Shown here in pieces: positions 10,938 through 37,813 of a DNA stretch of 64,000 bases. Origin of the DNA: Psychroserpens ponticola (GTDB lineage: Bacteria > Bacteroidota > Bacteroidia > Flavobacteriales > Flavobacteriaceae). The number at the start of each line of letters is the position of its first letter. The first letter of the stretch is position 1. The notes beneath the pieces were generated by a model. That model worked only from the letters and a program-made list of their open reading frames with translations, did not search any database and had not been told where the DNA came from. The stretch is from assembly GCF_023556315.2 (NCBI RefSeq), contig NZ_CP116221.1, forward strand, positions 744,001 to 808,000, written 5' to 3'. Both the position numbers and the translations under genes were made by a program.

Positions 10938-10939
10938 AT

Positions 10940-12178: not shown

Positions 12179-12179
12179 A

Positions 12180-13538: not shown

Positions 13539-13571
13539 TACACTTGATTTCTAAGATTTAAAACATAGTTT

Positions 13572-14534: not shown

Positions 14535-14695
14535 GAATATGGGTTTTAAAAAATCCAGACAAGTATAGATAAACCATTCAGATATTATATTTTAGTAACT
14601 TGCAATAATAAATATCTATTTTATAAAACCTTCAAAAGAGTTCCCAAAAAAAAGAAAACTAAAAAATGGCTATAAAAACATCTCAATTTTAAATT
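14535..14695. other. Intergenic stretch before the first MBOAT gene
   Basis: These 161 bases are strongly A+T rich and form the longest gap within the first 36 kb of the locus. An A-rich run sits just before the MBOAT start. I see no coding frame, no stable hairpin and no convincing promoter with the right spacing, although TATTTTAT-like text is present near 14620. An internal promoter here is possible but not supported. Confidence 0.4.
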
Positions 14696-16132
14696 ATGCT
14701 GTTTAACTCTTTTGATTTTGCTTTGTATTTGCCAATCGTTTTTATTCTCTATTGGTTTGTTTTTAATAAGCAACTTAAAACTCAAAATGCATTTCTTGTA
14801 ATTGCCAGTTACGTGTTCTATGGATGGTGGGATTGGCGTTTTTTATCACTTATTTTATTTAGTACACTTGTCGATTTTTCAATTGGTCTTTACTTGTCTA
14901 AAGCTAAAAAAGTTAAGACAAGGAAGTTATTATTATGGACTAGCATCATTGTTAATTTAGGGCTTTTAGGGTTTTTTAAATATTTCAATTTTTTTATAGA
15001 TAACCTTTCTCAGTCATTTCATTTTTTTGGTCAGGATATGACGTTTACAGGTTTAGAAATTATTTTGCCTGTCGGAATTAGTTTTTATACATTTCAAACT
15101 TTAAGTTATACTATTGATGTTTATAAGGGCAAACTTGAGCCAACAAAAGATTTCCTGTCCTTTGCAGCTTTCGTTAGTTTTTTTCCTCAACTCGTTGCTG
15201 GACCAATAGAACGTGCAAAACATTTATTGCCTCAATTTTATAAGAATAGAAAATTTGATTATGCAAAAGCTGTTGACGGAATGCGTCAAATACTTTGGGG
15301 TTTATTTAAAAAAATAGCCATTGCAGATAGTTGTGCGGTTTTTGCAAACGACATATTTAATAATTACGAAACTTACAATGGTAGTACGTTATTTATAGGT
15401 GCATTATTTTTTACTTTACAAATTTATGGTGACTTTTCAGGCTATTCGGATATCGCTATAGGAACTTCACGATTATTTGGTTTCGACTTGAAACGTAATT
15501 TTGCTTATCCGTACTTTTCACGAGATATAGCAGAGTTTTGGCGTCGTTGGCACATTTCATTATCAACATGGTTTCGAGATTACTTATATATTCCATTAGG
15601 CGGAAGTCGAGGTGGCACATTTCAAAAAGTTAGAAATACATTTATAATTTTTATTGTTAGCGGATTTTGGCATGGTGCAAATTGGACATTCATAATTTGG
15701 GGTTTCCTAAATGCGTTGTATTTTCTTCCTTTATTATTGCGAAATAAAAATAGAGTTTACACAGGTAATATTGCTGAAGGAAAACTATTTCCAAGTTTTA
15801 AAGAATTTAGAGGTATGCTCATTACCTTTGCGTTAACACTTATAGCTTGGGTGTTTTTTAGAGCAGAAAATATTAATCATGCCTTTGCGTATTTAGATGG
15901 TATGTTTTCTGCAAGCCTTTTTTCACTGCCAGAAATTAGACCAAAAGATGTATTTGTATTGATTTTTGTTTTCTTTTGCGTCGAATGGTTTGGTAGAGAT
16001 AAAAAATATGCCCTTGAATATTTAAATTTTAATAAGTATTTAAGATGGCTTTTATATGTTATAATTATAGTTTTAGTTTATTTATTTGGAAGTAATTCTG
16101 AAAATGTAGAATTTATTTATTTTCAGTTTTAG
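14696..16132 (+). CDS. MBOAT O-acyltransferase, AlgI/DltB type, copy 1
   Basis: A 478-residue multi-pass protein of the membrane-bound O-acyltransferase family. It has the conserved block RRWHISLSTWFRDYLYIP (His286) and the catalytic His326 in GFWHGANWTF. AlgI-like MBOATs move acyl groups from the cytoplasm to a periplasmic partner that modifies a polysaccharide. The next gene, eight bases downstream, is an SGNH-like protein with an N-terminal membrane anchor, matching that arrangement. The same architecture recurs at 23439 and 30018 with high amino-acid and nucleotide similarity. Which acyl group is moved is not visible. Confidence 0.93.
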   Translation: MLFNSFDFALYLPIVFILYWFVFNKQLKTQNAFLVIASYVFYGWWDWRFLSLILFSTLVDFSIGLYLSKAKKVKTRKLLLWTSIIVNLGLLGFFKYFNFFIDNLSQSFHFFGQDMTFTGLEIILPVGISFYTFQTLSYTIDVYKGKLEPTKDFLSFAAFVSFFPQLVAGPIERAKHLLPQFYKNRKFDYAKAVDGMRQILWGLFKKIAIADSCAVFANDIFNNYETYNGSTLFIGALFFTLQIYGDFSGYSDIAIGTSRLFGFDLKRNFAYPYFSRDIAEFWRRWHISLSTWFRDYLYIPLGGSRGGTFQKVRNTFIIFIVSGFWHGANWTFIIWGFLNALYFLPLLLRNKNRVYTGNIAEGKLFPSFKEFRGMLITFALTLIAWVFFRAENINHAFAYLDGMFSASLFSLPEIRPKDVFVLIFVFFCVEWFGRDKKYALEYLNFNKYLRWLLYVIIIVLVYLFGSNSENVEFIYFQF

Positions 16133-16140
16133 AAGCTTTT

Positions 16141-17031
16141 ATGAGGAAATTTGGTTATCAAATAGGACTTTTTGTTGTGATACTTTTTGTAGTAAATTTG
16201 TTGCTCTTTAATTTAGGGAACGATTTATATTATAAAAATTATGATACGTATGCCTTGAATTTTAATAACTATTTATTTGCCGATTCACATGGATCACCAC
16301 TAGGAGATCATACCCAAGATTATAATGTGTATAATTTTTCAGTAGGCGCAGATTCATATATTGATATAAAGCGAAAACTTAATTTTTTAATAGAAAGTAC
16401 AACTATTGATACCATTTATTTAAGTGCAGATGAGCATATGTTAAGTCCATACAGGGAACAGTATAATAATTTTGATAAATCATCTTATTATACTACTGCT
16501 AGCGATTTTTCATCAACATTTGAATACTATAAGAATGAGGCTGCTCAAAAAATAATTTATTTTCAACCTAAAACAGGAGCCGTTATAAGAAAGTATATTG
16601 TGTCAAAATTTGAAAACCTAGTTTCATCTCAAGAAGACGTTGACGTCAAAGAATCAAACACCTATTTAAATTGGAATGAAAGGTCTGATGATACTAAAAT
16701 TGAACGCATTAAAAAAAGAATAGAAACGCAATTCAATTATCTAGAAAAGTCTGTAATATTGGAAGAAACTTTGTTAGAAATTTTTAATATTTGTGAAACT
16801 AATAACGTGATTGTTATAGGTGTAAAGTATCCTTTAACAAAAGAATATTACACTGCTACAAAACATAAGATGTTTGGAGTAGATTCAATATTTAAGGATA
16901 AAAATTTAAAAATTTTAGACTTTCAATCAGCTTACATAGACAAAGATGATATGTTTTATAATGAAGATCATTTAACATTTGAAGGAGGAGAATTATTTGT
17001 TCAAGATTTATTTAAAGAGCTCAAGCAATAA
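16141..17031 (+). CDS. Membrane-anchored SGNH-like partner of MBOAT copy 1
   Basis: A 296-residue protein with one N-terminal membrane segment (about 7-25) and a periplasmic domain. A block I-like motif FADSHG places Asp48-Ser49-His50-Gly51 early in the domain. A block V-like motif YNEDHLTFEGG places Asp276-His277 at the end. This is the layout of AlgJ/AlgX-type acetyl-carrier proteins that complete transfer from an MBOAT onto a glycan. The block V motif has Asn where DxxH would have Asp, so the triad may be altered. Similarity to the other two partners in this locus is low. Confidence 0.68.
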   Translation: MRKFGYQIGLFVVILFVVNLLLFNLGNDLYYKNYDTYALNFNNYLFADSHGSPLGDHTQDYNVYNFSVGADSYIDIKRKLNFLIESTTIDTIYLSADEHMLSPYREQYNNFDKSSYYTTASDFSSTFEYYKNEAAQKIIYFQPKTGAVIRKYIVSKFENLVSSQEDVDVKESNTYLNWNERSDDTKIERIKKRIETQFNYLEKSVILEETLLEIFNICETNNVIVIGVKYPLTKEYYTATKHKMFGVDSIFKDKNLKILDFQSAYIDKDDMFYNEDHLTFEGGELFVQDLFKELKQ

Positions 17032-17034
17032 AAA

Positions 17035-17823
17035 ATGATCCCAAAAAAAATACATTATTGTTGGTTTGGTACTCAGCCTATGTCACAAACCATTCTGAAA
17101 TGCATCGAATCATGGCAGCAGCATTTACCAGATTTTGAACTTGTATTATGGAATGAAACAAATTCTGATTTGAGTCATCCTTTTGCCAAACAAGCACTCA
17201 AAGATCAAAAATGGGCTTTCCTATCAGATTATGTGAGACTTAATGTATTATCAGATCAAGGCGGTGTATATCTAGATACAGACATGCTTGTGCTTAAAAA
17301 TTTTTCAACGTTTCTAGATCGTAAATGTTTTGTAGGTTTAGAGTCTGAACGCTATGTGAGTTGTGGTGTGATAGGAACTGAAGCAAATCATCCTTATATT
17401 GTAAATTGCCTTCGGCATTATGATACAATTGATGTTTCTAAATCTGTGAATTATAAGGATTTAATTATTCCAAAAATATTTACTTCAGTATATAAAAGCA
17501 TGTATAAAACTGAAATTCTTGAAGCAATTGAGTATGAGGATTTATTGATTTTAGATGTGAATTATTTTTATGCATATCCCAATCCAGATCCTAAAATACG
17601 TAAACAAGATGATGATTATTTAAAACATATAACTGAAACATCCTATGCTGTTCATTTATGGGAAAGATCTTGGAAAGGTTATAATGAGTTTCAATTAATT
17701 CATCAAAGAAGATATTTAAAAGCTTTTTTTAAGATGATTACGAATGGAAATCAAAAAAAAATGAAACCAAAAAAATACTATAGAAAGCTATTATCTACCA
17801 TTAAAACTTCTATTTTTGGCTAA
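17035..17823 (+). CDS. GT32-like glycosyltransferase with DXD motif
   Basis: A 262-residue cytoplasmic glycosyltransferase of the OCH1/capsular Gly_transf_sug type. It begins with IPKKIHYCWFG and carries the hallmark DYVRLNVLSDQGGVYLDTDM, in which DTD binds the metal-nucleotide. The length and motif spacing match bacterial capsular mannosyl- or galactosyltransferase homologues. It ends one base into the next gene (TAATG overlap), so translation with the following GT4 is likely coupled. The sugar is unknown. Confidence 0.9.
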   Translation: MIPKKIHYCWFGTQPMSQTILKCIESWQQHLPDFELVLWNETNSDLSHPFAKQALKDQKWAFLSDYVRLNVLSDQGGVYLDTDMLVLKNFSTFLDRKCFVGLESERYVSCGVIGTEANHPYIVNCLRHYDTIDVSKSVNYKDLIIPKIFTSVYKSMYKTEILEAIEYEDLLILDVNYFYAYPNPDPKIRKQDDDYLKHITETSYAVHLWERSWKGYNEFQLIHQRRYLKAFFKMITNGNQKKMKPKKYYRKLLSTIKTSIFG

Positions 17824-19058
17824 TGAAAAACGATGTTTTAATAATTTATGGTTCGCTCAATTCAGTACCTTCTCCAGAAGGCGCAGCTCCTGCCAAAGTG
17901 ATCTATGAAACAGTTGAAACCTTAAATAATAAAGCCTTTAAAGTCCTTTCAAATTACAATCCTAGGCTCAATCAGGAATCATATAATAAAGAAGTGTATT
18001 TACATGTCAAATCGAATAGGTTTGATGCTCTTGTGTTATTGATTTTAAAATTAAGATATCCATTTAAAAAGCGAAAGCAGAAGTTTACTACAGGTTCAGA
18101 TAAGCAATTATTATATTTTATTTCTGTGTGTCGTTTTCTGCTATTTAAAAAGCATAAAAAAATTGTAGTGCATGTTAGTGTAGGTTTGGTTACAATGATT
18201 AAGCTGTTTTTGCCTAGTCGAAAAGTTGTGTATTTTCATCATGGTACTTCATTACATAAAAAGTATGATGAACAGCAATGGTGTCAACTAATATCAAATT
18301 GCGAAGCCATTTTTTCTGTGAATAAAAGAGCACTTGAAATGGCCAATCAGACTTTTAAAAAACAATTAGAACCGTCTAGATATTTTGCAATTCCTAATGC
18401 TATTATTCCAAAAGTAACTTTAAGTCAAGCAGTTGATTATTATAAAAATAGACCATATGACGAGCATGTTTTTGTATTTGCATTTTCAGGAAGAATATGT
18501 ATCGAAAAAGGTGTACTTAATTTATTACATGCGTTTAAAAATGTACATGACATAAATCATGACGTTCATCTGGTCGTCTTTGGAGCTGCTGGTACAAGAG
18601 GTACACATGAAATTAAAACGGAATATCTATTAGACTGTAAAGCATTTGCCGAATCACAGAATATTCCAGTCACATTTACCGGATTTCTTCCAAATGAAGA
18701 TTTATTAAAAGGGTTATCACAAGTTGACGTTCTCATTTTGCCAACAGATACCAAACATTATGAAGAAGGAATGCCATTGTCTCTAATTGAGGCTATGTCC
18801 TTGTCAAAACCTTTAATAGCAACCAATTCAGGTGGAAGTTCTGAAATTCTTAATGATGGTCAAAATGGTATTCTTATTACTTCTAATCCTTATATTGATG
18901 AGCTAACTAAAGCCATGTTAAACTTAAGTTCTAATAAAGAACTTTATGCAAAGTTTTCAAAAACAGCATATACGTCGTATATTGAAAATCATTCTTATGA
19001 GTCGTATAATAAAGCTTTTATAAAGGCATTAAAAGCAATTAATTTTTTTGATGAGTAA
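17823..19058 (+). CDS. Glycosyltransferase family 4
   Basis: A 411-residue GT-B enzyme. The C-terminal donor domain shows FSGRICIEKGVLNLLHAF and the EX7E motif EEGMPLSLIEAMSLSKP, followed by IATNSGGSSEI. The N-terminal acceptor domain is divergent, as expected for locus-specific specificity. It overlaps the next GT4 gene by eight bases, and the two proteins share N-terminal features such as an SVPSPEGA/TIPPNKKSP-like start, suggesting an old duplication. It probably adds one sugar on the cytoplasmic face. Confidence 0.9.
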   Translation: MKNDVLIIYGSLNSVPSPEGAAPAKVIYETVETLNNKAFKVLSNYNPRLNQESYNKEVYLHVKSNRFDALVLLILKLRYPFKKRKQKFTTGSDKQLLYFISVCRFLLFKKHKKIVVHVSVGLVTMIKLFLPSRKVVYFHHGTSLHKKYDEQQWCQLISNCEAIFSVNKRALEMANQTFKKQLEPSRYFAIPNAIIPKVTLSQAVDYYKNRPYDEHVFVFAFSGRICIEKGVLNLLHAFKNVHDINHDVHLVVFGAAGTRGTHEIKTEYLLDCKAFAESQNIPVTFTGFLPNEDLLKGLSQVDVLILPTDTKHYEEGMPLSLIEAMSLSKPLIATNSGGSSEILNDGQNGILITSNPYIDELTKAMLNLSSNKELYAKFSKTAYTSYIENHSYESYNKAFIKALKAINFFDE

Positions 19059-20280
19059 AACAAAAGTTGTTTATTTAGTTTCAGGATCAAGACACACTAT
19101 TCCGCCAAATAAAAAAAGTCCTGGAGTTCCAAGAATTATAGAAAAACTGTCTAATAATGATACGACATCTATTAGCTATAAAGTGGTTAGTAAATATGAC
19201 GATAGTTTAATACATCAAGATTATAATAAAAGGAAATATCTTCACATAAAACCTACGCTTTGGAATCGCTTTTTTGAATCCATTTTGAACAAGGTGCCAC
19301 TACGAATTAAAAAGCGAGTATATGGTTACTCTTTAACAGATCGCATTGTTTACTATGAAGGTATTAAGCGACTTATTCGAAAAGAGAGGCCTGATGTTAT
19401 TATTACCTTTATGCACTTTGAATTGTTTAAAAAGCTTTGCAAAGTGCATCCAAAAGCAAAGCACATTTATTTTTTTAGAAGCACAGATTTAAAGTTGCGA
19501 TTAGGAGATCAAAACATCGATTTTTTAATTAATAATTCTAGTGGATTTCTAGCCAATACAAAGTCGCCAATCGAAGAGCTTAAAACAATTTCTCCAAGAT
19601 TAAATTTTCCAACTGAAACCATTTATAATTCAGTTAAATTAAACGATTTTACTGATAAAATATGTGAAGAACTTTCAGAGCAATATCGGAAAACTTTCAA
19701 TTTAAAACCAGACGACTTCGTTATAGGATATGCAGGACGACTCAGCGAAGAGAAATCCGTTTTAGAACTCTTTGAAGCGGTTCATTATTTGAAAAATAAG
19801 GGCTTGAAAGTCCATGTATTGGTGGCAGGAAGTATTGCGATAGAAACCACACCTAATGAAGATTATTACAATCTAATCGTCAACTATGCGAATGAAAATC
19901 TTTCAGATCAAATACATTTTTTAGGCTGGTTGCCGAACGAAAAGTTGTATGAATTCTATAATGCTTTAGATATTGGAGTGCTCTTGTCAAAATATAGTGA
20001 AGGGAATTCAATGTTTCTCCTTGAAACACTTTCTATGGGAACTCCAATGATTGCAACACGTATTGGTGGCAATCTAGAGATGATTACTGATGGTGAAAAT
20101 GGATTCCTGATAGACATTGAAAACGTAAAGCAAAACTTGATTCAAAAACTTGAATTTATTATCAGTAATAGAGGGCAACTTAATGAAATGTCTACAAATG
20201 CTTTAAAATATATAAAACAACACCATACAAATGATATTATGGTCGATAAGTTTAATAACTTTATGCAAAATTTCGAATAG
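19051..20280 (+). CDS. Glycosyltransferase family 4
   Basis: A 409-residue GT-B enzyme with YAGRLSEEKSVLELFEAV and the EX7E motif in SEGNSMFLLETLSMGTPMIA, then IGGNLEMI. ATG 19051 is preferred over a TTG one codon earlier. The start overlaps the end of the preceding GT4 gene by eight bases. The N-terminal domain resembles that of the preceding gene loosely, so the two may act in succession on related acceptors (inference). Confidence 0.9.
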   Translation: MSKTKVVYLVSGSRHTIPPNKKSPGVPRIIEKLSNNDTTSISYKVVSKYDDSLIHQDYNKRKYLHIKPTLWNRFFESILNKVPLRIKKRVYGYSLTDRIVYYEGIKRLIRKERPDVIITFMHFELFKKLCKVHPKAKHIYFFRSTDLKLRLGDQNIDFLINNSSGFLANTKSPIEELKTISPRLNFPTETIYNSVKLNDFTDKICEELSEQYRKTFNLKPDDFVIGYAGRLSEEKSVLELFEAVHYLKNKGLKVHVLVAGSIAIETTPNEDYYNLIVNYANENLSDQIHFLGWLPNEKLYEFYNALDIGVLLSKYSEGNSMFLLETLSMGTPMIATRIGGNLEMITDGENGFLIDIENVKQNLIQKLEFIISNRGQLNEMSTNALKYIKQHHTNDIMVDKFNNFMQNFE

Positions 20281-20292
20281 CAATTTTTGAAT

Positions 20293-21006
20293 ATGGATAT
20301 TAAGAATCAAATAGAGTTTTATGATAAGTACTGGTCTGGAAGAAAGGTGCTTAACAATTTAAAATTAAGACGTGCAGTTAAAATTTTAGATTACTTTATA
20401 GCGGTAAAACGAGAAATAAAAGAGCCTAGAATTATTGAACTAGGAAGTGGAGATGGAAGATTTACTGCATTTATTGGCGAATTTGGTAATGCAGATGCAA
20501 TTGAGCTTTCTAAAGAAGCTGTTATAAGAGCTAATGAACTTTACCCTCATGTTAACTACATTCATGGTAATGCTATAGATCATCCGCTTGAACAAGCTAC
20601 TTATGATGTTGTAATTTCACAAGAAGTCATTGAACATATTGAAGAACAAGATAAGTACTTTGAGGCTTGTTACAATATTCTTAAACCTGGAGGTTACCTT
20701 ATTTTAACAACACCTAATAAAAAAGTATTTGACCACATGGAAGGTGGTAATTGGTCTAGACAACCCATTGAGAAGGTTTTAACACCAAATGATCTTAAAC
20801 AGCTTGTCAAAAAGAAATTCAAAATCATAGATTATGATAGTATAATACTTAATTTTGGGAAACAAGGTTACTTTAAGCTTATAAATAACAGGTATCTAAC
20901 TGGGTTTTGTAACAAAGTTGGTTTAAGAAAGTTTAGAGAAAGAACATTAGGTAAATTTGGTTATGGTTTGCATCAATGTATATTTGCAAAAAAAAATATG
21001 ATTTAA
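20293..21006 (+). CDS. SAM-dependent class I methyltransferase
   Basis: A 237-residue methyltransferase with motif I IIELGSGDGRFTAF. The following motif region DVVISQEVIEHIEEQDKYF and the post-motif strand ILKPGGYLILTTPN are those of Methyltransf_11/23-like enzymes. In polysaccharide loci such proteins often O-methylate sugars or a chain terminus. The start at ATG 20293 follows a TTG at 20287 that I consider unlikely. It lies between GT4 genes with gaps of only 7-12 bases. The target is unknown. Confidence 0.85.
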   Translation: MDIKNQIEFYDKYWSGRKVLNNLKLRRAVKILDYFIAVKREIKEPRIIELGSGDGRFTAFIGEFGNADAIELSKEAVIRANELYPHVNYIHGNAIDHPLEQATYDVVISQEVIEHIEEQDKYFEACYNILKPGGYLILTTPNKKVFDHMEGGNWSRQPIEKVLTPNDLKQLVKKKFKIIDYDSIILNFGKQGYFKLINNRYLTGFCNKVGLRKFRERTLGKFGYGLHQCIFAKKNMI

Positions 21007-21013
21007 TAACTTA

Positions 21014-22186
21014 ATGAATATAGCAATCTACAATGGTAATTTACAGCCCACAACTTTTGTTTTAAGATTAGCTCAAGTTGTTAATGAAGAACATACAGTT
21101 TTAGTTTCTGGATCGTCACCAAAGTTATTTAAGCATCAAAAACAAGGCCTTAATTATTTGCCTACTGACCCAAGTAATAAATTAGTATTATTAATTCAGT
21201 TTGTATTGAGACTTCTGGTTTTTTTTTGTGTTCAACCAAAAAAATGTAGACACTTTGTTTCGCTTCTACGGAATTCAGATAAACCACTTTTAACCAGATT
21301 TAAACAGTTTTTAATTTGGTCAAAATTCATTTCTAATAATATTGAAGTTGTTCATATTCAATGGGCTTCACATATATTTTTATTTGAAGAAATATTAGAG
21401 CATTCATATTTTAAAACTATGGTAAGTTTAAGAGGGCGATTAATAAACATCACACCACTTGCCGAAGCCGATTTAAAAGCATTATATCAAAGAACCTTTC
21501 CAAAAGTAAATCAGTTTCATGCTGTGACACATCATATCAAAAAACAAGCAATGATATATGGAGCGGCTGAAGATAAAATTAAAGTCATCTATTCAGGTGT
21601 TGAAGTGAATTCTTTTGATGCTTTTAGAAAGAAAGATTATGCAAAACGAGACACGTTGCAAATACTCTCAGTAGGAAGACAGCATTGGAAAAAAGGATAT
21701 AACTATGCTTTAGAAGCCTTAAAAATTGTTCTTGAAAGAGATATTAAAGCAACGTTTACAATTATTGGAGCAGCAGATTCAGAAGAGATTATTTACACTG
21801 TTCACGATTTAAATCTTAAAAATGAAGTACGCTTAACGTCAAAAATGGATTATCAAGACGTCTTGAAAGAAATGCAAAAAGCAGATGTGTTAGTGTTACC
21901 AAGCGTTTCTGAAGGTCTTGCCAATGTGGTTATTGAAGCTATGGCACTTGGCTTACCAGTAATTAGTACAAATGCAGTTGGTATGTCAGAATTGGTAATT
22001 CATAAGGAAACCGGATTGTTATTCGAAAATAGAGATGTAAACGATTTAGCCGAAATGATAAAGGGTTTTAATTCAATGCCTCAAGAAGACGTTAAAAAAA
22101 TGACAGATACGGCATTGAAAAAAGTAATAATTCAGCACAATTGGAAAACATTCAAACAAAGTTTTAATGATTTCTATACATGTTAA
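21014..22186 (+). CDS. Glycosyltransferase family 4
   Basis: A 390-residue GT-B enzyme. The donor-binding half holds SVGRQHWKKGYNYALEAL and the EX7E motif SEGLANVVIEAMALGLPVI, then STNAVGMSELV. The N-terminal half contains a hydrophobic stretch near 60-75 that could touch the membrane. It lies seven bases after the methyltransferase gene. The same EGxxNxVxEA pattern appears in the next gene, so the pair may be paralogues. Confidence 0.9.
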   Translation: MNIAIYNGNLQPTTFVLRLAQVVNEEHTVLVSGSSPKLFKHQKQGLNYLPTDPSNKLVLLIQFVLRLLVFFCVQPKKCRHFVSLLRNSDKPLLTRFKQFLIWSKFISNNIEVVHIQWASHIFLFEEILEHSYFKTMVSLRGRLINITPLAEADLKALYQRTFPKVNQFHAVTHHIKKQAMIYGAAEDKIKVIYSGVEVNSFDAFRKKDYAKRDTLQILSVGRQHWKKGYNYALEALKIVLERDIKATFTIIGAADSEEIIYTVHDLNLKNEVRLTSKMDYQDVLKEMQKADVLVLPSVSEGLANVVIEAMALGLPVISTNAVGMSELVIHKETGLLFENRDVNDLAEMIKGFNSMPQEDVKKMTDTALKKVIIQHNWKTFKQSFNDFYTC

Positions 22187-22212
22187 ATGATAATTAAAAC
22201 AAACACTAATAC

Positions 22213-23400
22213 ATGAAAATAGGACTCGTCCTTCCTTCAACTCCTGGTTACTCTGAAACTTTTTTTACTTCAAAAATTAAAGGGCTTCAAGAGCATGGTT
22301 TTAGTGTTGTGTTACTAACACAAACCATAGGGAAAAATTTTGATTTATGCCCTGTTGTTAAGGCACCAAAAATTTATAAAAGCACAGCTCTTCAAATGAT
22401 TGCCATGATATTTGTGTTTTTAAAATTATTATGGCATTTAAAACCTGTAATCAATTATATAAAACTAGAACGGCAAGAAAATATTTCAACCTCTCGTATT
22501 ATTAAAAAGGTATATTTTAATTCACATTTGTTAAGTCAAAAATTAGATTGGTTGCATTTTGGATTTACAACTCAAGCTTTAGAAAGCGAACTTGTAGCAA
22601 AAGCAATTCGAGCTAAAATGGCTGTGAGTTTTAGAGGATTTGATATTAATGTTTATCCTGTGAAACACCCAAATTGTTATGATTTGGTTTGGAAACATGT
22701 AAATAAAGTGCATAGTATTTCAATAGATTTACTCCAAAAAGCTTATGGTCTAGGACTGGCTAATGATTCATCTTACAAAGTAATAACACCAGCTGTTGAT
22801 GTTTCAAATTTTAATGCTAGGAAGGATTTTAAATCTGAAAACTCAAAGCTTAAAATTATCACTATAGCAAGATTAAACTGGATAAAAGGATTGGATCATG
22901 CACTAAATGCGATGAAGCTTTTAAACGATAAAGGTTTAGAATTTGAATATCATATTATAGGATCTGGTACACCAACAGAAATTGAACGTTATACATTTCA
23001 GTTGCATCAAAATCAATTGCAAAACCATGTATTTCTTCATGGTAAGTTATCACATGAAGAGACATTATTAAAATTATGTTCAGCTGATATTTATCTACAG
23101 CCAAGCATACAAGAAGGATTTTGTAATGCGGTTTTAGAAGCCCAAGCAATGGGATTATTGTGTTTAGCTACCAATGGAGGAGCACTCAATGAAAATATCA
23201 TACACGAAAAAACAGGTTGGATAGTTCCTAAAAGAGCGCCTAGATTAATAGCAGAAAAAATTCTTGAGATTAATGAATTATCTGACAATGAAAAAAAATC
23301 AATCTCAAAAAATGCAATTAATCATGTAATGGCTAACTTTAATGTCAAAGAACAGCAAAAACAATTTGTTGATTTTTATAATAATGAAATACGTTTGTAA
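22213..23400 (+). CDS. Glycosyltransferase family 4
   Basis: A 395-residue GT-B enzyme with ITIARLNWIKGLDHALNAM and the EX7E motif QEGFCNAVLEAQAMGLLCL. The N-terminus (KIGLVLPSTPGYSETFF) is the usual first strand and loop of the acceptor domain, resembling colanic-acid-type WcaL/amylovoran GT4 proteins. It is the last glycosyltransferase before the second MBOAT-SGNH pair. The donor is unknown. Confidence 0.9.
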   Translation: MKIGLVLPSTPGYSETFFTSKIKGLQEHGFSVVLLTQTIGKNFDLCPVVKAPKIYKSTALQMIAMIFVFLKLLWHLKPVINYIKLERQENISTSRIIKKVYFNSHLLSQKLDWLHFGFTTQALESELVAKAIRAKMAVSFRGFDINVYPVKHPNCYDLVWKHVNKVHSISIDLLQKAYGLGLANDSSYKVITPAVDVSNFNARKDFKSENSKLKIITIARLNWIKGLDHALNAMKLLNDKGLEFEYHIIGSGTPTEIERYTFQLHQNQLQNHVFLHGKLSHEETLLKLCSADIYLQPSIQEGFCNAVLEAQAMGLLCLATNGGALNENIIHEKTGWIVPKRAPRLIAEKILEINELSDNEKKSISKNAINHVMANFNVKEQQKQFVDFYNNEIRL

Positions 23401-23438
23401 TTAGTACATGAATTTCAAAGCCATTTAAATAAGAATAC

Positions 23439-24866: not shown

Positions 24867-24868
24867 TT

Positions 24869-25765
24869 ATGAGTATTTTTCTAAAAAAAATAGGTATTTT
24901 AATTATTAGCACTTTCGTTATAGCTAATCTGTTGTCTTATATTAGTCTGTGGACTTTAAGACAAAGTAGTTTTTATAAACCTTCGTTTTTGGTTAATGCT
25001 GTTTCTGAAACGAATTTTGATTATATTGTACTTGGTGCAAGTACTGGATTAACTACACTTGATACACAGGTTATCGATTCTCTTAGTGGTAAAAAAGGTA
25101 TTAATCTAGCAATTGATGATACGTCAATTTCTAGTCAGTATTTAATGCTTGAACATTTTTTGGCATTAGGGAAAACAACAAAAATATGTGTCATTGCACC
25201 AAGTTTTACATCATTTGATACTCAAATTCAAAGTCTAAATGCAAACGACTATAGGTTTTTGCCATATGTAGATCGTTCTTATGTTTCAGACTATTTTCAG
25301 TCTTTTTCTTCAGTGAATGCTAAACTATTGTCTGGAAGTAAATATTTTCCTATGTTAGGCGTTTCTTATTATAATTCTGAAGTGTTTTATCCATCACTAT
25401 TAAGTGTTTTTCAACCAAATCGCCACAACCGATTTGATACTAATGGTAATTATACGTATCCAGTACAAGACCTAATGTCTGGACATATTAAAAATCGGCA
25501 ATCTATAAAATTGAATTTTAAAAATGGTGCTCTAAAGAAAATTCAGGAGCTTTGTGATAGAAACAATATTGAGCTAATTTGCTATATCTCACCAATTAAG
25601 AATATAGAAATTGTAAGTAATACTTCTGATTATGAGATTATTAATCATAGTGATGTTTTAATAAAAACAGATTACTTTTTTGACAATGTTCATGTCAATA
25701 GCTTAGGACGTCAAGTCATTAGTGAACGTTTCGCAAATGATTTAAGTTCTTATTTTAAGGATTAA
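24869..25765 (+). CDS. Membrane-anchored SGNH hydrolase-like partner of MBOAT copy 2
   Basis: A 298-residue protein with an N-terminal membrane segment (about 7-25). The periplasmic domain has block I-like YIVLGASTGL, with Ser58 as candidate nucleophile. A glycine/asparagine-containing KKGINLAIDDTS follows at the block II position. The intact block V DNVH is Asp272 to His275. This is the most canonical of the three SGNH partners here. Family knowledge suggests it receives acyl groups delivered by the MBOAT and transfers them to the glycan, or trims them. Confidence 0.72.
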   Translation: MSIFLKKIGILIISTFVIANLLSYISLWTLRQSSFYKPSFLVNAVSETNFDYIVLGASTGLTTLDTQVIDSLSGKKGINLAIDDTSISSQYLMLEHFLALGKTTKICVIAPSFTSFDTQIQSLNANDYRFLPYVDRSYVSDYFQSFSSVNAKLLSGSKYFPMLGVSYYNSEVFYPSLLSVFQPNRHNRFDTNGNYTYPVQDLMSGHIKNRQSIKLNFKNGALKKIQELCDRNNIELICYISPIKNIEIVSNTSDYEIINHSDVLIKTDYFFDNVHVNSLGRQVISERFANDLSSYFKD

Positions 25766-25814
25766 AAAACATCAAATTATATCAAATTAAGAATTTCTAT
25801 TCAATTCTAATCTT

Positions 25815-25822
25815 TATATTTA
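25815..25822 (+). promoter_or_regulatory. Weak candidate internal promoter before the FkbM genes
   Basis: A TATATTTA element lies 38 bases before the first FkbM start, in the 94-base gap after the second SGNH gene. A TTT triplet is located 18 bases upstream. The fit to the Bacteroidota TTTG-N19-TAnnTTTG pattern is partial, so it is only a candidate in A+T-rich DNA. Confidence 0.25.
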
Positions 25823-25859
25823 ACTTGCATGCATATTTTATATTTAAATCAACACATTA

Positions 25860-26693
25860 ATGAATTTTAAGAGAACAATAAAAAGGTTTTATCATTCTAT
25901 GAAACCCAAAAAAAACAATTTTGTTGAGGTTAACTTATGTGGTGTTCCTTTAAACGTTTTACCAGGCGCAGTTAGAACAAAAGTAGATCAAGATGATACT
26001 TGGTGGTTTTATCTTACTAAGCATCACAATATCATTTATGATGTTGGATGTAATATTGGTTATACTGCGTTATTAGCATTAATTCAAGATACTAACAAAC
26101 AAATTGTTCTTGTTGATCCTAATCCTGTCGCATTGCAACATGCAGCAATGAATATTATTAATAATGGTTTAGGTCGTAGAGTACAATATCTCACTGCTTT
26201 TGTTGGAGATAAATTAGACGATACTGTTAAATTTTATACTGTAGGTTCAGGAGCCGCTGGAAGTATGTATGCTTCGCATGCTGAAACTGCTTCTGCTATG
26301 AATTCATTTATGGATGTGAATACAATAACTTTAGATTATATGTATGACTTTTATGGAATCAAACCAGATTTAGTGAAAATTGATGTTGAAGGAGCAGAAA
26401 CTTTAGTAATGAAGGCAGCTACTAAATTAGCAAAGGAAACGAAATGTACCTTTTTTATTGAAATGCATAATGTTGAGAATTTAGGTATGGAAGCTGCTGG
26501 TGATTTAATGGTTCAATGGTGCAACGAAAATGATTATAAAGCGTGGTATTTAAAAACACAAGAAGTGCTTTCGTCTGGAACACCTATTGCTACAAGAGGG
26601 AAATGTCACTTATTGTTATTGCCTAAAGATGCAGCTTATCCAGAATATCTGAAAGCTGTAGTTCAAAATAGCCCACTTCCTAATCATATATAG
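25860..26693 (+). CDS. FkbM-family SAM methyltransferase
   Basis: A 277-residue methyltransferase. Motif I is IIYDVGCNIGYTALLAL, the acidic residue binding the ribose is in IVLVDPNPVAL, and the family's KIDVEGAE motif occurs in PDLVKIDVEGAETLVM. FkbM-type enzymes O-methylate hydroxyl groups of sugars or polyketides. A second FkbM gene follows after 27 bases, so two distinct O-methyl positions or an acceptor/terminus pair may exist. The 94-base gap upstream is the longest in this part of the locus. Confidence 0.88.
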   Translation: MNFKRTIKRFYHSMKPKKNNFVEVNLCGVPLNVLPGAVRTKVDQDDTWWFYLTKHHNIIYDVGCNIGYTALLALIQDTNKQIVLVDPNPVALQHAAMNIINNGLGRRVQYLTAFVGDKLDDTVKFYTVGSGAAGSMYASHAETASAMNSFMDVNTITLDYMYDFYGIKPDLVKIDVEGAETLVMKAATKLAKETKCTFFIEMHNVENLGMEAAGDLMVQWCNENDYKAWYLKTQEVLSSGTPIATRGKCHLLLLPKDAAYPEYLKAVVQNSPLPNHI

Positions 26694-26720
26694 TAGTTTA
26701 AATTACATAAAAAAATAAAG

Positions 26721-27554
26721 ATGCAGATGCTTGTATATTTCTATAATAAAATACCAAAGTCATTAAGGCATAAGGTTGGAAAAGCTAAGGCATTAAAATC
26801 TGTAAGAGATTTAATTTTTAGAAATAAGGGTGTCTTTAGAGAGAGTATCGTCAAAATTAATAGATCGTATCTAGAGTTTCCAGTTGAATTTAAATTTGTA
26901 GCGTCTATAAAAGATGCCTCTAAAGCATATTCTAAAGGTGTCGAAAATACCTTGCTCAGAAATTCAATTACACTTCTTAAAAAATATAATAAAGATTTAC
27001 ATGACATTTCAATTTTAGATATTGGAGCTAATTTTGGTTATTTAAGCTTAGTCTGGGCAAAATCTGTTTGCAAAACAGGACAGGTTATTTCATTTGAACC
27101 TAATAAAAATGTTTATAATAGCTTATTAAAATCTATTGCGATTAATAACTTAAATAATATTCAAGTTGAAAATTTAGCGATTGGAAATGAAAACAAGTCT
27201 GTCAATTTATTTTTTGAAAACTCTACCACTTCAAATGTTATACAATCTGATATTTCTCAATCATTAGGAACTATTCAAATGATTAGAATTGATGACTTTA
27301 TTAAAAGTCAAAAATTAACTCAATGTCATTTAGTTAAAATTGATGTAGATGGAATAGAATTAGATATTTTGAAAGGGAGCATAAACATGCTAAATAAATT
27401 TAGACCAATAGTTATTGTCGAAATTAATGATGATATACGAATTGTAGAGTTTTTTATTGAAAACAATTATCAAGTATTAAATGGAAACCTAAAAGAATAC
27501 GATTCAAATAAACCGTTGCCACCAAATATATATTGCATTCCAAAATCAAATTGA
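26721..27554 (+). CDS. FkbM-family SAM methyltransferase
   Basis: A second FkbM-type protein of 277 residues with ISILDIGANFGYLSLVWA as motif I, VISFEPNKNVYN as the acidic loop and LVKIDVDGIELDILKG as the family motif. The N-terminal 90 residues are basic and differ from the preceding FkbM protein, so this is not a recent tandem copy. The last base of its TGA stop is the first base of the ATG of the GT2 gene downstream, a one-base overlap suggesting coupled translation. Confidence 0.87.
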   Translation: MQMLVYFYNKIPKSLRHKVGKAKALKSVRDLIFRNKGVFRESIVKINRSYLEFPVEFKFVASIKDASKAYSKGVENTLLRNSITLLKKYNKDLHDISILDIGANFGYLSLVWAKSVCKTGQVISFEPNKNVYNSLLKSIAINNLNNIQVENLAIGNENKSVNLFFENSTTSNVIQSDISQSLGTIQMIRIDDFIKSQKLTQCHLVKIDVDGIELDILKGSINMLNKFRPIVIVEINDDIRIVEFFIENNYQVLNGNLKEYDSNKPLPPNIYCIPKSN

Positions 27555-28882
27555 TGCTATTCAGTTTCTTAAAATACTTACAGCCAACTCATTATTTTCT
27601 AAGCTTTACTAAAGCAGGTCATTCTATATTTCCTAAAGTAGATGCGTTGCCTTCTAATATTTTAAGTCAATTACATCAGGATGATCAATACCTTTCTGAA
27701 GAAGCAAAAGCATACGATGTATCATGGCAAGCCATACAGTCAGGATATATTGGAGAAGTTGCAACCTATCAAAAGTTTGTAAAACTCCCATTAAAAGATA
27801 ATTACCGTTTTATTCGAAAAAATTTCCATTCGGTTTGGGTGTTTTACGTGTTTTTATGTCGCATACTTTCATTTCATAATCCGTTTAAAGAATGTGTTGC
27901 TTGGCTAAGCACAAGAAATGTTAATCAGATAAAAGAAGTAGAAAATTCTATTGTTTATAAAGATTGGGATTCATTTCAATCCCAGTTAATTGAAGAAAAA
28001 CCACTTGTAAGTGTTATTATTCCTACTTTAAATCGATATGAGTATTTAAAAGACGTATTAAAAGATTTAGAAGCTCAAGATTATTCTAATTTTGAGGTGA
28101 TTGTGGTGGATCAATCTGATGATTTTAATGAGAAATTTTATAAGAATTTTAACCTGAATTTTCAAATTGTTAATCAAAAGGAAAAAGCCTTATGGTTGGC
28201 AAGAAATACTGCTATTAAAACAAGTAAAGGCGATTGGGTTGCTTTGTCTGAAGATGATGTTCGGATCGGTCCAGATTGGATAAGTATGCACCTAAAATGT
28301 CTCGACTTTTTTAATTCTAAGATTTCTGCAGGTGTATTTTATCCTGAAGGTCAGTACATACCAAAATCTCGTTCGTTTTTTGCAGTTGCGTCTCAATTTG
28401 CAACAGGAAATGCAATGCTACATAAAACTGTTTTTAAAAATGTAGGTTTATTTGATCGTCAGTTTGAAAAGCAGCGAATGGGAGATGGCGAGTTTGGAAT
28501 GAGGCTTTATTTAGAAGGATTGAAAAGCATTTCAAATCCGTTCGCTTCTTGTGTCGATGTAAAAGCAGGAACTGGAGGATTAAGAGAAATGGGAAGTTGG
28601 GATGCGTTTAGACCTTCAAACTTTTTAGCTCCAAGACCAATACCAAGTGTTTTATACTATTTCAGAAGGTATTTTGGGAATTCGTCAGCTAGACTAGCAT
28701 TGTTAAGAACTGTGCCAATCTCAATTATGCCATACCAATTCAAAAAAAATAAACCATTATTGTTTGTCGGACTAATAGTAACAATTTTAATATTGCCAAT
28801 AGTTGTGTTTCAAGTATGGAAATCTTGGAATTTATCTAGTAAAAAAATAAAAGAAGGCGCTTTAATTGAAGTCTTAACATGA
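27554..28882 (+). CDS. Glycosyltransferase family 2 with N-terminal extension and C-terminal membrane segment
   Basis: A 442-residue protein. The GT2 catalytic domain starts near residue 150 with VSVIIPTLNRYEYL, then VIVVDQSDDFNEKF, and the metal site is ALSEDDVRIGPDW. A region FEKQRMGDGEFGMRLYLEG fits the acceptor-side acidic motif. About 145 residues before it are of unknown fold. One membrane segment lies near 402-424. I start it at ATG 27554, which shares a base with the FkbM stop; a TTG at 27533 would add seven residues. It overlaps the next GT4 gene by four bases (ATGA). Confidence 0.87.
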   Translation: MLFSFLKYLQPTHYFLSFTKAGHSIFPKVDALPSNILSQLHQDDQYLSEEAKAYDVSWQAIQSGYIGEVATYQKFVKLPLKDNYRFIRKNFHSVWVFYVFLCRILSFHNPFKECVAWLSTRNVNQIKEVENSIVYKDWDSFQSQLIEEKPLVSVIIPTLNRYEYLKDVLKDLEAQDYSNFEVIVVDQSDDFNEKFYKNFNLNFQIVNQKEKALWLARNTAIKTSKGDWVALSEDDVRIGPDWISMHLKCLDFFNSKISAGVFYPEGQYIPKSRSFFAVASQFATGNAMLHKTVFKNVGLFDRQFEKQRMGDGEFGMRLYLEGLKSISNPFASCVDVKAGTGGLREMGSWDAFRPSNFLAPRPIPSVLYYFRRYFGNSSARLALLRTVPISIMPYQFKKNKPLLFVGLIVTILILPIVVFQVWKSWNLSSKKIKEGALIEVLT

Positions 28883-29976
28883 TCACATTGAAGTCAAATA
28901 TTGTAATCGTAACATCAGAATTTCCACCACAACCTGGAGGAATAGGAAATCATGCGTATAATTTGGCATTGCATTTAAGCAACCTTGGTTATCAAGTTAA
29001 GGTAATTGCAGATCAACGTTCAAAAACAGGTGACGAAGAATTAGAATTTGATAAATCATTACCATTTTCTGTAGAGCGCATCAAATTGTATAAGTTTCGA
29101 TTTATAATGTATTTAAAACGGATTATACTTACTATTAAATACATTAAAAGTGCAACGTATTGTATTGCTACTGGGAAATTTTCCTTATGGAATGTTGCTT
29201 TTTGTAGACTTTTTTTTAATCGAAAAACTATTGCAGTAGTTCACGGAACTGAAGTTAATTTTAAGTCTGCTTTGTTGCGAAAATCTATTAATTTTTCACT
29301 GAAACGTTTTGATGAAATTGTAGCAGTTTCTAATTATACCAAAAGTCTGATTTCGCATTTGAATAAAAAAATTATTGTGATTCCAAATGGTATTACAACA
29401 TCAGAATGGAAGAATTCAAAGGAGAAAATTAAACTCAAAGGTCAGCCAGTTATAACTACGGTTGGTCGTGTGAGTTCTAGAAAAGGTCAGTTAAATGTCA
29501 TTCAACATCTTCCACAACTTGTAAAACAATTTCCTGAGTTGCATTACCATTGTGTAGGTATTCCTACTGAAGCTGATGCGTTTATTAAGGTTGCAGAATC
29601 CTTAAAAGTTGCGTCTTATGTTACGTTTCACGGCAGTGTAACAGAAGATGAATTAAAACAATCAATAGAGGCTACAGATATTTTTGTAATGTTGAGCACA
29701 GAAAGTATGACAGGTGATGTTGAAGGATTCGGAATAGCGATCTTAGAAGCTAATGCCATGGGAATTCCTGCAATAGGTGCTAAGGGCTGCGGAATAGAAG
29801 ATGCCATAAATAATGGTAAATCTGGATTTTTAATTGATGTTAAAAACACCAACGAGTTTAAAGAGCGTATTTTACAAATACTTCAGAATACCACAAAATT
29901 TAAAACTGAAGCTGTGACTTGGGCAAACACTCATGATTGGTCACATATAATTAAACGCTATGAAGAATTATTTTAG
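28879..29976 (+). CDS. Glycosyltransferase family 4
   Basis: A 365-residue GT-B enzyme with a classic N-terminal loop TSEFPPQPGGIGNHAYNLA, as in PimB-like mannosyltransferases. The donor half has VGRVSSRKGQLNVIQHL, and the EX7E motif is EGFGIAILEANAMGIPAIG. The four-base ATGA overlap with the preceding GT2 gene implies translational coupling. The PimB-like glycine-rich loop is shared with many enzymes, so the sugar cannot be inferred. Confidence 0.92.
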   Translation: MITLKSNIVIVTSEFPPQPGGIGNHAYNLALHLSNLGYQVKVIADQRSKTGDEELEFDKSLPFSVERIKLYKFRFIMYLKRIILTIKYIKSATYCIATGKFSLWNVAFCRLFFNRKTIAVVHGTEVNFKSALLRKSINFSLKRFDEIVAVSNYTKSLISHLNKKIIVIPNGITTSEWKNSKEKIKLKGQPVITTVGRVSSRKGQLNVIQHLPQLVKQFPELHYHCVGIPTEADAFIKVAESLKVASYVTFHGSVTEDELKQSIEATDIFVMLSTESMTGDVEGFGIAILEANAMGIPAIGAKGCGIEDAINNGKSGFLIDVKNTNEFKERILQILQNTTKFKTEAVTWANTHDWSHIIKRYEELF

Positions 29977-30017
29977 ACGAGTCAAAACTCTATAAATTAA
30001 TATTAAGGAATTAACCA

Positions 30018-31463
30018 ATGATTTTTAACTCATTAGACTTCGCTATTTTCTTGCCAATCGTCTTTGTACTGTATTGGTTTGTGACAAATAGAAGTTTGAA
30101 ACTCCAAAATGTATTGCTTGTCGTTTCTAGTTATTTCTTCTATGGATGGTGGGATTGGCGTTTTTTATCACTGATTCTTTTTAGTACACTAGTTGATTTT
30201 TTTGTTGGAAAAGCAGTGGCAAAAGAGCAAGGTAAAACTAAAAGGCGAATGTTGCTTTGGATTAGCATTTTAGTGAATATTGGGTTTCTAGGTTTTTTTA
30301 AATATTACAATTTTTTTCTAGATAATTTTGTGTCAGCTTTTTCGTTTTTTGGAAATGAAATCAATGCCAATTCATTAAATATTATATTACCAGTAGGTAT
30401 TAGTTTTTATACCTTTCAAACACTTAGTTACACTATTGACGTATATAATAGAAAATTAAAACCTACCCAGGATTTTATTTCATTTGCAGCTTTTGTTAGC
30501 TTCTTTCCACAATTAGTCGCAGGTCCAATTGAAAGAGCAACAAATTTATTACCTCAGTTTTATGCGAAAAGAAAATTTAAATATGCCAACGCAGTTGATG
30601 GTTTACGTCAAATACTTTGGGGTTTGTTTAAAAAAGTAGTGATAGCAGATAATTGTGCCAAATATGCCAATTATATATTTGATAATTCAGCAGATTTAAG
30701 TGGAAGCACTTTAGTTTTAGGTGCTGTCTTTTTTACATTTCAAATTTATGGAGACTTTTCTGGGTATTCTGATATAGCCATTGGTGTTTCTAGGTTGTTT
30801 GGTTTTAATCTAAAACAAAATTTTGCATTTCCTTATTTCTCAAGAGATATTGCTGAATTTTGGAGACGATGGCACATGTCATTGTCAACATGGTTTAGAG
30901 ATTATCTTTACATTCCGCTAGGAGGAAGTAGAGGAACATTAACTAAGACCATTAGGAATGTTTTTATCATTTTTATTGTAAGTGGGTTTTGGCATGGTGC
31001 TAACTGGACATTTATAATTTGGGGCGCATTAAACGCGCTGTATTTTTTACCCATATTGCTTACAAAAAATAATCGCAATCACTTAAATACAATAGCAGAA
31101 GGCAAATACTTGCCAAGCTTTAAAGAGTTTAGCTTAATGTTTGTGACCTTTGCTTTAACAGTTTTTGCATGGATCTTTTTTAGAGCAGAAACTATAGCGC
31201 ATGCTTTTAGTTATATTTCTGGGATTTTCACAGAATCTCTTTTCTCGATGCCATATTTTAAAGATGGAACTTTGGCAATACCTACATTAATATTAGTCAT
31301 GTTTTTTGTGATTATTGAATGGTTTGGTAGAGAAGATCAATATGGAATTGAATCTCTCTTAATGAAAAATAAATTATTAAAATGGTGTTTTTACTACTTG
31401 ATTTTGATTTTAATTTTTGTTTTCGCAGGAACTAGTCAGGAATTTATTTACTTTCAATTTTGA
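30018..31463 (+). CDS. MBOAT O-acyltransferase, AlgI/DltB type, copy 3
   Basis: A 481-residue MBOAT protein that aligns without visible gaps with copy 1 for most of its length. It has the conserved RRWHMSLSTWFRDYLYIP and the catalytic His326 in GFWHGANWTF. The reading frame ends in TGATG, where the ATG starts the SGNH-like partner. Family knowledge gives the role as transfer of an acyl group through the membrane. Its similarity to copy 1, also seen in the DNA, suggests duplication or gene conversion within the locus. Confidence 0.93.
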   Translation: MIFNSLDFAIFLPIVFVLYWFVTNRSLKLQNVLLVVSSYFFYGWWDWRFLSLILFSTLVDFFVGKAVAKEQGKTKRRMLLWISILVNIGFLGFFKYYNFFLDNFVSAFSFFGNEINANSLNIILPVGISFYTFQTLSYTIDVYNRKLKPTQDFISFAAFVSFFPQLVAGPIERATNLLPQFYAKRKFKYANAVDGLRQILWGLFKKVVIADNCAKYANYIFDNSADLSGSTLVLGAVFFTFQIYGDFSGYSDIAIGVSRLFGFNLKQNFAFPYFSRDIAEFWRRWHMSLSTWFRDYLYIPLGGSRGTLTKTIRNVFIIFIVSGFWHGANWTFIIWGALNALYFLPILLTKNNRNHLNTIAEGKYLPSFKEFSLMFVTFALTVFAWIFFRAETIAHAFSYISGIFTESLFSMPYFKDGTLAIPTLILVMFFVIIEWFGREDQYGIESLLMKNKLLKWCFYYLILILIFVFAGTSQEFIYFQF

Positions 31464-32419
31464 TGAAGAAGTTCATTTTAAAAATATTAACTTTTGTTGT
31501 TCCAATTCTTGTATTGGCTTATGGAATTGATGCTTATCTCTCAAATAATTTGAGGAAATCAAGAGTATTTGCACATTTGGAATATCCAATTTGGAATGAT
31601 ATTCTTGAAAGTAATTTAAATGCTGATATATTAATTCACGGAAGTTCTCGTGCTTGGGTTCATATAGCTCCTAAAATTTTAGAAGACACATTGCATTTAT
31701 CTTCCTATAATCTTGGTGTTGATGGTCATACATTTAATATGCAACAATTGCGACATGAATTGGCATTAAAATATAATGAGAAACCAAAAATGATTATTCA
31801 TTCTGTTGATGCTACAACATTGCAAAAAGGGAATTTCTATAATGCTGAACAAATCTTACCTTTCATGCTTTGGGATGAAGATTTCGAAAAGTACACATCT
31901 AATTATACATCATATTCCTACTTAGATTATAAGCTTCCAATTTTAAGATATTATGGTGAAACTGATGCTATTTCCACAGCATTTAAAATGAGTTTTAAAA
32001 GTTCAACGAATAATGAGCAAAGAATAAAAGGGTATCAAGGGCAAGAAAGAATATGGAATCAGGATTTTGATAATGCAAAAAAAATAATGAAACACTATGA
32101 GGTTGTAATTGATGAAGATCTCAAACAAAGATTTAATGAGTATCTTAAAGCTTGTAAAGCTAGTGATATTGAAGTAGTATTAGTTTATACTCCTGTTTAT
32201 ATTGAAGGGCAAGAGTTTATTAAAAACATAGATGAAATAAAGAAAACTTACACCAATTTTGCTGAAACTTATAATTTTAAGTTTTTTGATTTTACAAATG
32301 ATGACATCTGTTTTGATAAATCATATTTTTATAATGCAAGGCACCTGAATAAAAATGGGTCAGAACTTTTTACGAAGAAATTAGCATCTAAAATAAAAAC
32401 AGACCTAATTAAAAAATGA
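31463..32419 (+). CDS. Membrane-anchored SGNH-like partner of MBOAT copy 3
   Basis: A 318-residue protein with an N-terminal membrane segment (about 5-22). The periplasmic domain opens with ILIHGSSRAWVHI, where Ser61 or Ser62 is the block I candidate. A block II-like region SSYNLGVDGHTFNMQ follows. At the end, FYNARHLNKNGSELF gives His294 with Asn291 in place of the block V Asp. It starts within the stop of the MBOAT gene (TGATG) and overlaps the following GT4 by four bases. Its sequence is unlike the other two SGNH partners, as expected if the partner sets the acceptor. Confidence 0.7.
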   Translation: MKKFILKILTFVVPILVLAYGIDAYLSNNLRKSRVFAHLEYPIWNDILESNLNADILIHGSSRAWVHIAPKILEDTLHLSSYNLGVDGHTFNMQQLRHELALKYNEKPKMIIHSVDATTLQKGNFYNAEQILPFMLWDEDFEKYTSNYTSYSYLDYKLPILRYYGETDAISTAFKMSFKSSTNNEQRIKGYQGQERIWNQDFDNAKKIMKHYEVVIDEDLKQRFNEYLKACKASDIEVVLVYTPVYIEGQEFIKNIDEIKKTYTNFAETYNFKFFDFTNDDICFDKSYFYNARHLNKNGSELFTKKLASKIKTDLIKK

Positions 32420-33546: not shown

Positions 33547-33629
33547 TCTTTATGTGAAATAACAATAAGAATTGATGAGATTTTCGCGTAATTTGCTTAT
33601 TCAAATTCCAAAACAAGTAATAAAAGTAT

Positions 33630-37741: not shown

Positions 37742-37813
37742 ATTGTTATTGCTCATTTTGTTTATTAAAGGGTAATTCGAAAAGTTAATTAATATCAGAT
37801 ATATTCCAGATAG

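Follow-up and report, generated by a model that had tools for sequence, protein, structure and literature searches.

Acylation of bacterial polymers by a membrane-bound O-acyltransferase (MBOAT) acting together with an SGNH-type partner is known from several systems. One of them is the DltB/DltX/DltD system of teichoic acid D-alanylation, whose shuttle has reportedly been described by Schultz et al. In the Bacillus cereus group, PatA1, PatA2, PatB1 and PatB2 form two MBOAT-SGNH pairs. All four proteins are named for the acetylation of a single cell-wall polysaccharide (PMC7759979, partial text). Alginate O-acetylation by AlgI, AlgJ and AlgX also combines an MBOAT with SGNH proteins. In the peptidoglycan O-acetyltransferase PatA/PatB of Neisseria and Campylobacter, the Tyr of a C-terminal FXYXXF motif of PatA is acetylated from acetyl-CoA in a manner dependent on the MBOAT His, and PatB takes the acetylated FXYXXF-motif peptide as donor (PMC12148441, partial text). 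Here we describe a polysaccharide locus of Psychroserpens ponticola (Flavobacteriaceae) with three MBOAT-SGNH pairs. It lies in a stretch of 64,000 nucleotides (positions 744001-808000 of a 4.03-Mb one-contig genome), referred to below as the window.

Three MBOAT genes (14696, 23439 and 30018), each with an SGNH-type gene directly behind it, had been pointed out in an initial annotation of this DNA, and the open reading frames (ORFs), PF03062 matches and common plus strand bear this out. We consider it likely that they constitute three complete modules of the PatA/PatB type, with M2-S2 as the core, M1-S1 and M3-S3 as accessory modules and the SGNH partner as the component that fixes the acceptor. 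The kind of acylation is already known; what is new here is that multi-pair loci combine a single MBOAT lineage with partners that have been exchanged. The components of the pairs are as follows.

14696..16132, plus strand: M1, MBOAT acyltransferase, 478 aa, putative accessory pair 1 (PF03062, 104.6 bits; His326)
16112..16129, plus strand: candidate acyl-shuttle hexapeptide FIYFQF at the C-terminus of M1, read from the sequence (FXYXXF motif of PMC12148441, partial text)
16141..17031, plus strand: S1, predicted SGNH partner (Ser49, His277), hydrophobic helix at the N-terminus
23439..24866, plus strand: M2, MBOAT acyltransferase, 475 aa, putative core pair (PF03062, 85.9 bits)
24846..24863, plus strand: candidate acyl-shuttle hexapeptide FIYFQF at the C-terminus of M2, read from the sequence
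24869..25765, plus strand: S2, predicted SGNH partner (Ser58, Asp272, His275), hydrophobic helix at the N-terminus
30018..31463, plus strand: M3, MBOAT acyltransferase, 481 aa, putative accessory pair 2, between GT4e and GT4f (PF03062, 102.1 bits)
31443..31460, plus strand: candidate acyl-shuttle hexapeptide FIYFQF at the C-terminus of M3, read from the sequence
31460..32419, plus strand: S3, SGNH-like protein by profile comparison (Ser63 and His295, with Asn292 where Asp is usual), hydrophobic stretch at the N-terminus

The PF03062 scores of M1-M3 all exceed the cut-off of 27 bits, and a search of solved structures with M1 returned DltB entries. In each of the three proteins residue 326 is the His of a WHGAN motif, as the initial annotation had noted; its description of the MBOATs as close copies does not hold, least of all for M2, since identities are 53.8% (M1-M2), 67.9% (M1-M3) and 57.3% (M2-M3). 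Absent from that annotation was the C-terminal end shared by all three MBOATs, FIYFQF, which matches the published FXYXXF shuttle motif and, taken with the chemistry reported for PatA/PatB (PMC12148441, partial text), gives the "delivery step" proposed there a concrete published chemistry. WHG and the FXYXXF shuttle motif are present in all 169 distinct MBOATs examined. The members of each pair are closely spaced on the plus strand, with 8 nt between M1 and S1, 2 nt between M2 and S2, and a short overlap between M3 and S3 (the S3 start is a TTG at 31460, with an ATG at 31463, the start given in the initial annotation).

The partners were said to share almost no sequence, and their pairwise identities are indeed only 22-28%; yet S1, S2 and S3 look like remote homologues in hhalign comparisons, which linked S2 with S3 (E 8e-10, probability 96.5) and S1 with S3 (E 2e-7, probability 93.7), and S1 with S2 over a C-terminal stretch only (probability 60.1). 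Predicted structures of S1 and S2 are SGNH folds supported by fold matches; the top Foldseek match of S2 is DltD, and the best matches of the modelled partners include many esterases. S3 groups with the SGNH partners by profile comparison only; its Lipase_GDSL match is weak (E 0.00095, below the cut-off), and a search of solved structures with the S3 profile returned only OatA (6wn9), at a non-significant E of 0.56. The idea of modules, which unrelated partner folds would have undone, therefore holds up by predicted structure for S1 and S2 and, more tentatively, by profile comparison for S3. Ser and His are invariant in each partner family (29 of 29 rows in the S3 family), and the residue three positions before the His is Asp in 27 of 27 S2-family rows, Asn in 11 and Asp in 3 of 14 S1-family rows, and Asn in 29 of 29 S3-family rows. 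The invariant Ser (49, 58 and 63 in S1, S2 and S3) precedes the His (277, 275 and 295), which is the canonical, unpermuted order.

Compared with the described systems, M1-M3 resemble PatA in having an MBOAT with both the catalytic His and a C-terminal FXYXXF shuttle. The locus differs from PatA/PatB in that several pairs are present, set among the glycosyltransferases (GTs) of a polysaccharide locus, and in that its partners are only remotely similar, S3 having Asn at the acid position. The alginate comparison made in the initial annotation is apt as far as the combination of MBOAT and SGNH protein goes, but it is not the nearest one: AlgJ and AlgX are circularly permuted, with His before Ser, whereas S1-S3 are Ser-first. 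This motif order rules out an alginate-type identity for the partners. The Dlt system shares the MBOAT family and an SGNH partner, to which the DltD match of S2 may be added; however, the shuttle peptide of M1-M3 is fused to the MBOAT. Assignment to Dlt was rejected, M1-M3 scoring 144-157 bits against the DltB equivalog cut-off of 375, and no DltA ligase in the genome exceeded its cut-off (best 70 bits versus 559.85; the control passed the cut-off in 2 of 14 genomes). The Bacillus cereus group is similar in having more than one PatA and PatB for one polysaccharide (PMC7759979, partial text), but it has two pairs against three to six in Flavobacteriaceae loci, and its PatB1 belongs to the permuted DHHW family (PMC9487903, partial text).

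Pairing itself proved highly regular. We collected the top 30 loci for each of the M2 and M3 queries, searched against 329 genomes each; in all 56 distinct loci obtained (top hits of two MBOAT searches, own genome included, rather than a random draw) a same-strand ORF of 279-376 aa lies directly behind the MBOAT. In a wider set such an ORF directly follows 115 of 116 MBOATs of at least 400 aa, the lone exception being where a fetched stretch ends, and four short or broken MBOATs having been set aside; 63 loci of this set were fetched with S2 as query, so that their pairing is partly by construction. The genome of P. ponticola has six MBOATs, and each of the three outside the locus is immediately followed by a gene for a 288-363-aa protein, of which one is AlgX-type (PF16822) and two lack an SGNH Pfam match.

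Among 120 runs of adjacent MBOAT (M) and SGNH (S) genes in 103 loci we found 93 M-S, 12 M-S-M-S, 3 M-S-M-S-M-S and 5 S-M-S, along with single S-S-M-S, M-S-S-M-S, S-M and M-M-S (a split MBOAT) runs and 3 lone MBOATs that are broken or lie at an edge. These counts come from profiles built from the same partners, and the runs were not deduplicated (L095 and L170, like L084 and L162, share MBOATs); once duplicates are removed, three pairs in direct tandem occur at two distinct places, in Flavobacterium proteolyticum (L092) and Lacinutrix sp. C3R15 (L095). The combination of one MBOAT with two SGNH proteins in alginate O-acetylation is a precedent for the S-M-S runs (PMC9487903, partial text). SGNH genes outnumber MBOATs in a few loci (L084, L160, L163, L164, L061 and L101), where partners may share one donor. 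At L174 (the same place as L139), the MBOAT is divided between two ORFs, and the S3-family partner that follows is intact.

Three pairs in one locus had been called unusual; they are uncommon but recurrent. PF03062 matches occur in 181 of 249 genomes of the family, and all 58 genomes with three or more were searched again. At least three MBOATs lie within 45 kb in at least nine of the 249 genomes, own included, and within 17 kb in at least five, these being lower bounds owing to fragmented assemblies and to a first survey that scored at most 8 candidates per genome. The densest relatives have six MBOATs in 42 kb and, next, five in 39 kb. Between one genome with six MBOATs (L119-L121) and another with five (L122-L124), each over about 40 kb, partner types recur. 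Among the open-access matches listed, titles and abstract beginnings contained nothing on multi-pair MBOAT-SGNH loci or partner exchange, and we found no open-access paper mentioning MBOAT together with Flavobacteriaceae.

The three MBOATs do not share one history. A quick tree of 115 MBOATs places M2 among 67 rows that form a clade; 60 of these have S2-family partners (more than 200 bits with the S2 profile) and 7 have other ones; partner cluster F1, wider than the S2 family, covers 66 of the 67. Outside this clade S2-family partners are absent from the tree. Since many rows of the clade had been fetched by the S2 query, we relied on a partner-blind test made from the MBOAT-only searches described above. 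All 14 MBOATs best matching M2 at 62% or more, own included, have an S2-family partner (361-500 bits); the identity rule by itself gave 17 rows, 15 of them in partner cluster 1, from which L207, L214 and L223 were moved out as matching M3 better. The 32 M3-type MBOATs, by contrast, have partners in 13 BLAST clusters, and only three of these partners, own included, are of the S3 family. Where MBOATs are 65-70% identical, partner identity is 51.2% within the S2 family versus 25.5% in M1/M3-type modules, the cross-family background being 24.2%. Many of the exchanged partners in relatives lack an SGNH Pfam match and were recognised by eye from their Ser and His motifs.

A careful tree of 45 rows, with many weak branches and with one S2-family MBOAT (L069) apart from the others, groups M1 with a same-genus MBOAT that has an S3-family partner (G400) and with an S1-family one, while another S1-family MBOAT is placed elsewhere. 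Approximately unbiased (AU) tests rejected a single clade of the ten S3-family MBOATs (p 3.5e-7) and likewise of the six closest (p 0.021), but not of three S1-family (p 0.247) or eight S2-family MBOATs (p 0.52); L159 was left out of these tests as a long branch, and the grouping, based on partner profile scores, was made once the first quick tree was already known. M2-S2 is an old, co-inherited pair, whereas M1 and M3 belong to another lineage, in which similar MBOATs sit with many different partners. The initial annotation's idea of one conserved acyl-delivery step serving three partners accordingly fits two of the three pairs: the MBOAT comparisons across Flavobacteriaceae loci agree with it for the lineage of M1 and M3, and not for M2, whose lineage is a separate one with nearest members that retain the S2 partner family.

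The genes around the pairs tell the modules apart as well. The locus and the neighbours of the pairs are:

325..41586, plus strand: whole polysaccharide locus (ABC exporter, Wzy-like gene, initiating sugar transferase, GTs, modifying enzymes)
17035..20280, plus strand: GT32, GT4a and GT4b, downstream of M1-S1 (Pfam and synteny)
22213..23400, plus strand: GT4d, glycosyltransferase directly upstream of M2 (Pfam)
25860..29976, plus strand: FkbM1, FkbM2, GT2c and GT4e, with homologues beside M2-S2 in relatives
32416..33546, plus strand: GT4f, at the downstream edge of the M3-S3 junction (Pfam)

Judged by best match, homologues of FkbM1 (10 of the 63 S2 loci), GT2c (40), GT4e (31) and GT4f (37) lie 3' of M2-S2, often after further GT genes, and FkbM2 homologues lie beside M2-S2 in 6 loci; those of GT4d, found in 35, lie upstream or downstream. 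The gene order behind M2-S2 varies, as in Psychroserpens, Winogradskyella and Mangrovimonas. GT4e and GT4f both exceed the identity limits in 22 of the 63 loci, adjacent in 19 and 0.5-1.7 kb apart in 3, and none of these 22 assessable relatives has an MBOAT between them; in the window, M3-S3 occupies exactly this junction (29976 to 32416). Gain of M3-S3 here and loss elsewhere are indistinguishable. In other relatives (L048, L052, L057, L059, L062 and L095) one or two different pairs lie directly upstream of M2. An S1-type pair has homologues of GT32-GT4a-GT4b nearby in L136, and L090 has these GTs with no S1 in view. In Winogradskyella sp. ECml5-4 the S2 homologue has locus tag 12240 and the S3 homologue 12270, a distance equal to that in the window, provided that tags increase in steps of five. 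Homologues of S1, S2 and S3 are each listed under a Psychroserpens sp. whose longest contig has 354,867 bases, and they may share one contig. A search for S3 at E 1e-80 across 195 relatives returned only two genomes (G002 and G004) besides its own, and the best other full-length S3 match in 23 genomes of the genus is 41% identical. A plasmid search with window positions 12180-20300 gave no match.

We propose that each MBOAT would take an acyl group from cytoplasmic acyl-CoA using His326 and load it, on the periplasmic side, onto the Tyr of its own C-terminal FIYFQF. The anchored SGNH partner would receive the group onto its Ser and transfer it to a sugar hydroxyl of the glycan that the locus produces. 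By analogy with PatA, which has a fused shuttle and uses acetyl-CoA (PMC12148441, partial text), the group is most likely acetyl, although another acyl group is possible. M2-S2 would be the old core module of this type of locus, and M1-S1 and M3-S3 accessory modules, present or absent as cassettes. Because the M1/M3 lineage has repeatedly been combined with different partners, the SGNH protein probably fixes the sugar or position acylated; an almost invariant donor peptide with partners that turn over fits acceptor choice by the SGNH protein. Each pair may then have its own acceptor, so that three positions of one common glycan could be modified.

Could the three pairs simply be duplications of one pair within the locus, with conserved MBOATs, fast-diverging partners and no exchange? 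The uniform gene order, short distances, MBOAT identities of 54-68% and the 12 M-S-M-S runs in relatives would agree with this. However, the nearest relatives of M2 are in other genomes, mostly of other genera, with S2-family partners; the three best matches of M3 are likewise in other genomes, followed by the own-genome MBOAT at 1.24 Mb (74%), ahead of M1 (68%); and the S3-family MBOATs do not form a single clade. Trees and partner-blind matches thus disfavour this origin, which we regard as quite improbable. Partner exchange could also be mimicked if MBOAT paralogues of the same genome recombined or underwent gene conversion, and M1 and M3 share 65-74% identity with each other and with the own-genome MBOATs at 1.24 and 1.40 Mb. 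Yet in 12 MBOAT pairs nucleotide identity is 61-71%, with no exact run above 35 nt and no long tract, and the profile along the gene (higher in the core, lower in the C-terminal part) is much alike within and between genomes. These data, together with the M3 matches elsewhere, make conversion unlikely; even an old conversion would imply a single donor type working with different partners.

The remaining alternatives concern function, and we hold both to be doubtful, with a small share of probability each. The modules may be redundant, all acylating the same position, or some partners may be weak, regulatory or esterase-like: the S3 family and most S1-family proteins lack the canonical Asp at the third position before the His, and esterases are frequent among the fold matches. 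On the other hand, WHG and FIYFQF are kept in every MBOAT, Ser and His are invariant in every partner family, and some functional SGNH enzymes have a Ser-His dyad (PMC9487903, partial text). It is also conceivable that the modules serve different glycans and share a locus by chance, as the locus contains both an ABC exporter (10080 and 10940) and a Wzy-like gene (37814) besides its many GTs. Arguing for a single glycan are the one direction of the roughly 41-kb locus from 325 to 41586, its short gaps, the one initiating sugar transferase found (40192) and the nearby tags of the S2 and S3 homologues in ECml5-4.

Pfam matches also include two FkbM methyltransferases and several modifying enzymes. 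Further possible routes of acylation within the locus are an acyltransferase-3 gene (2171-3286, PF01757) and PglD-like (6684) and FemAB/GNAT-like (35237) genes. A 452-aa protein (12180-13538) combines a hexapeptide acyltransferase domain (PF00132) with a sulfotransferase domain (PF13469) and may be a dual sugar-modifying enzyme. The head of the locus (325-2142) encodes a membrane protein of 605 aa that carries a DCC1-like thiol-disulfide domain (PF04134) and looks HTTM-like by eye. Proteins of 536 aa (33630-35240) and 154 aa (36307-36771) have no Pfam match at E 0.001, the former having homologues in 10 of the 63 S2 loci; a transglutaminase-like protein (36935-37741, PF01841) has them in 6.

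How MBOAT-SGNH systems choose the position to be acylated is not settled in the portions of the literature available to us. Pairs exchanged in nature, whose donors are similar and whose partners differ, make position choice testable by swapping halves and could allow the acylation pattern of a glycan to be predicted from Bacteroidota genomes. In these bacteria, acylation may affect phage adsorption and degradation. More tentatively, and as a possibility rather than an expectation, Flavobacteriaceae may use plug-and-play acylation, in which a generic MBOAT donor lineage with a near-invariant Tyr shuttle would serve many SGNH heads alike in structure yet distant in sequence, one per sugar position, with pairs gained and lost as cassettes (three here, six in one relative) and the donor shared in those loci where heads are more numerous than donors (S-M-S, S-S-M-S and M-S-S-M-S runs). 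If plug-and-play acylation holds true, the acylation code of a glycan could be read from its set of SGNH heads.

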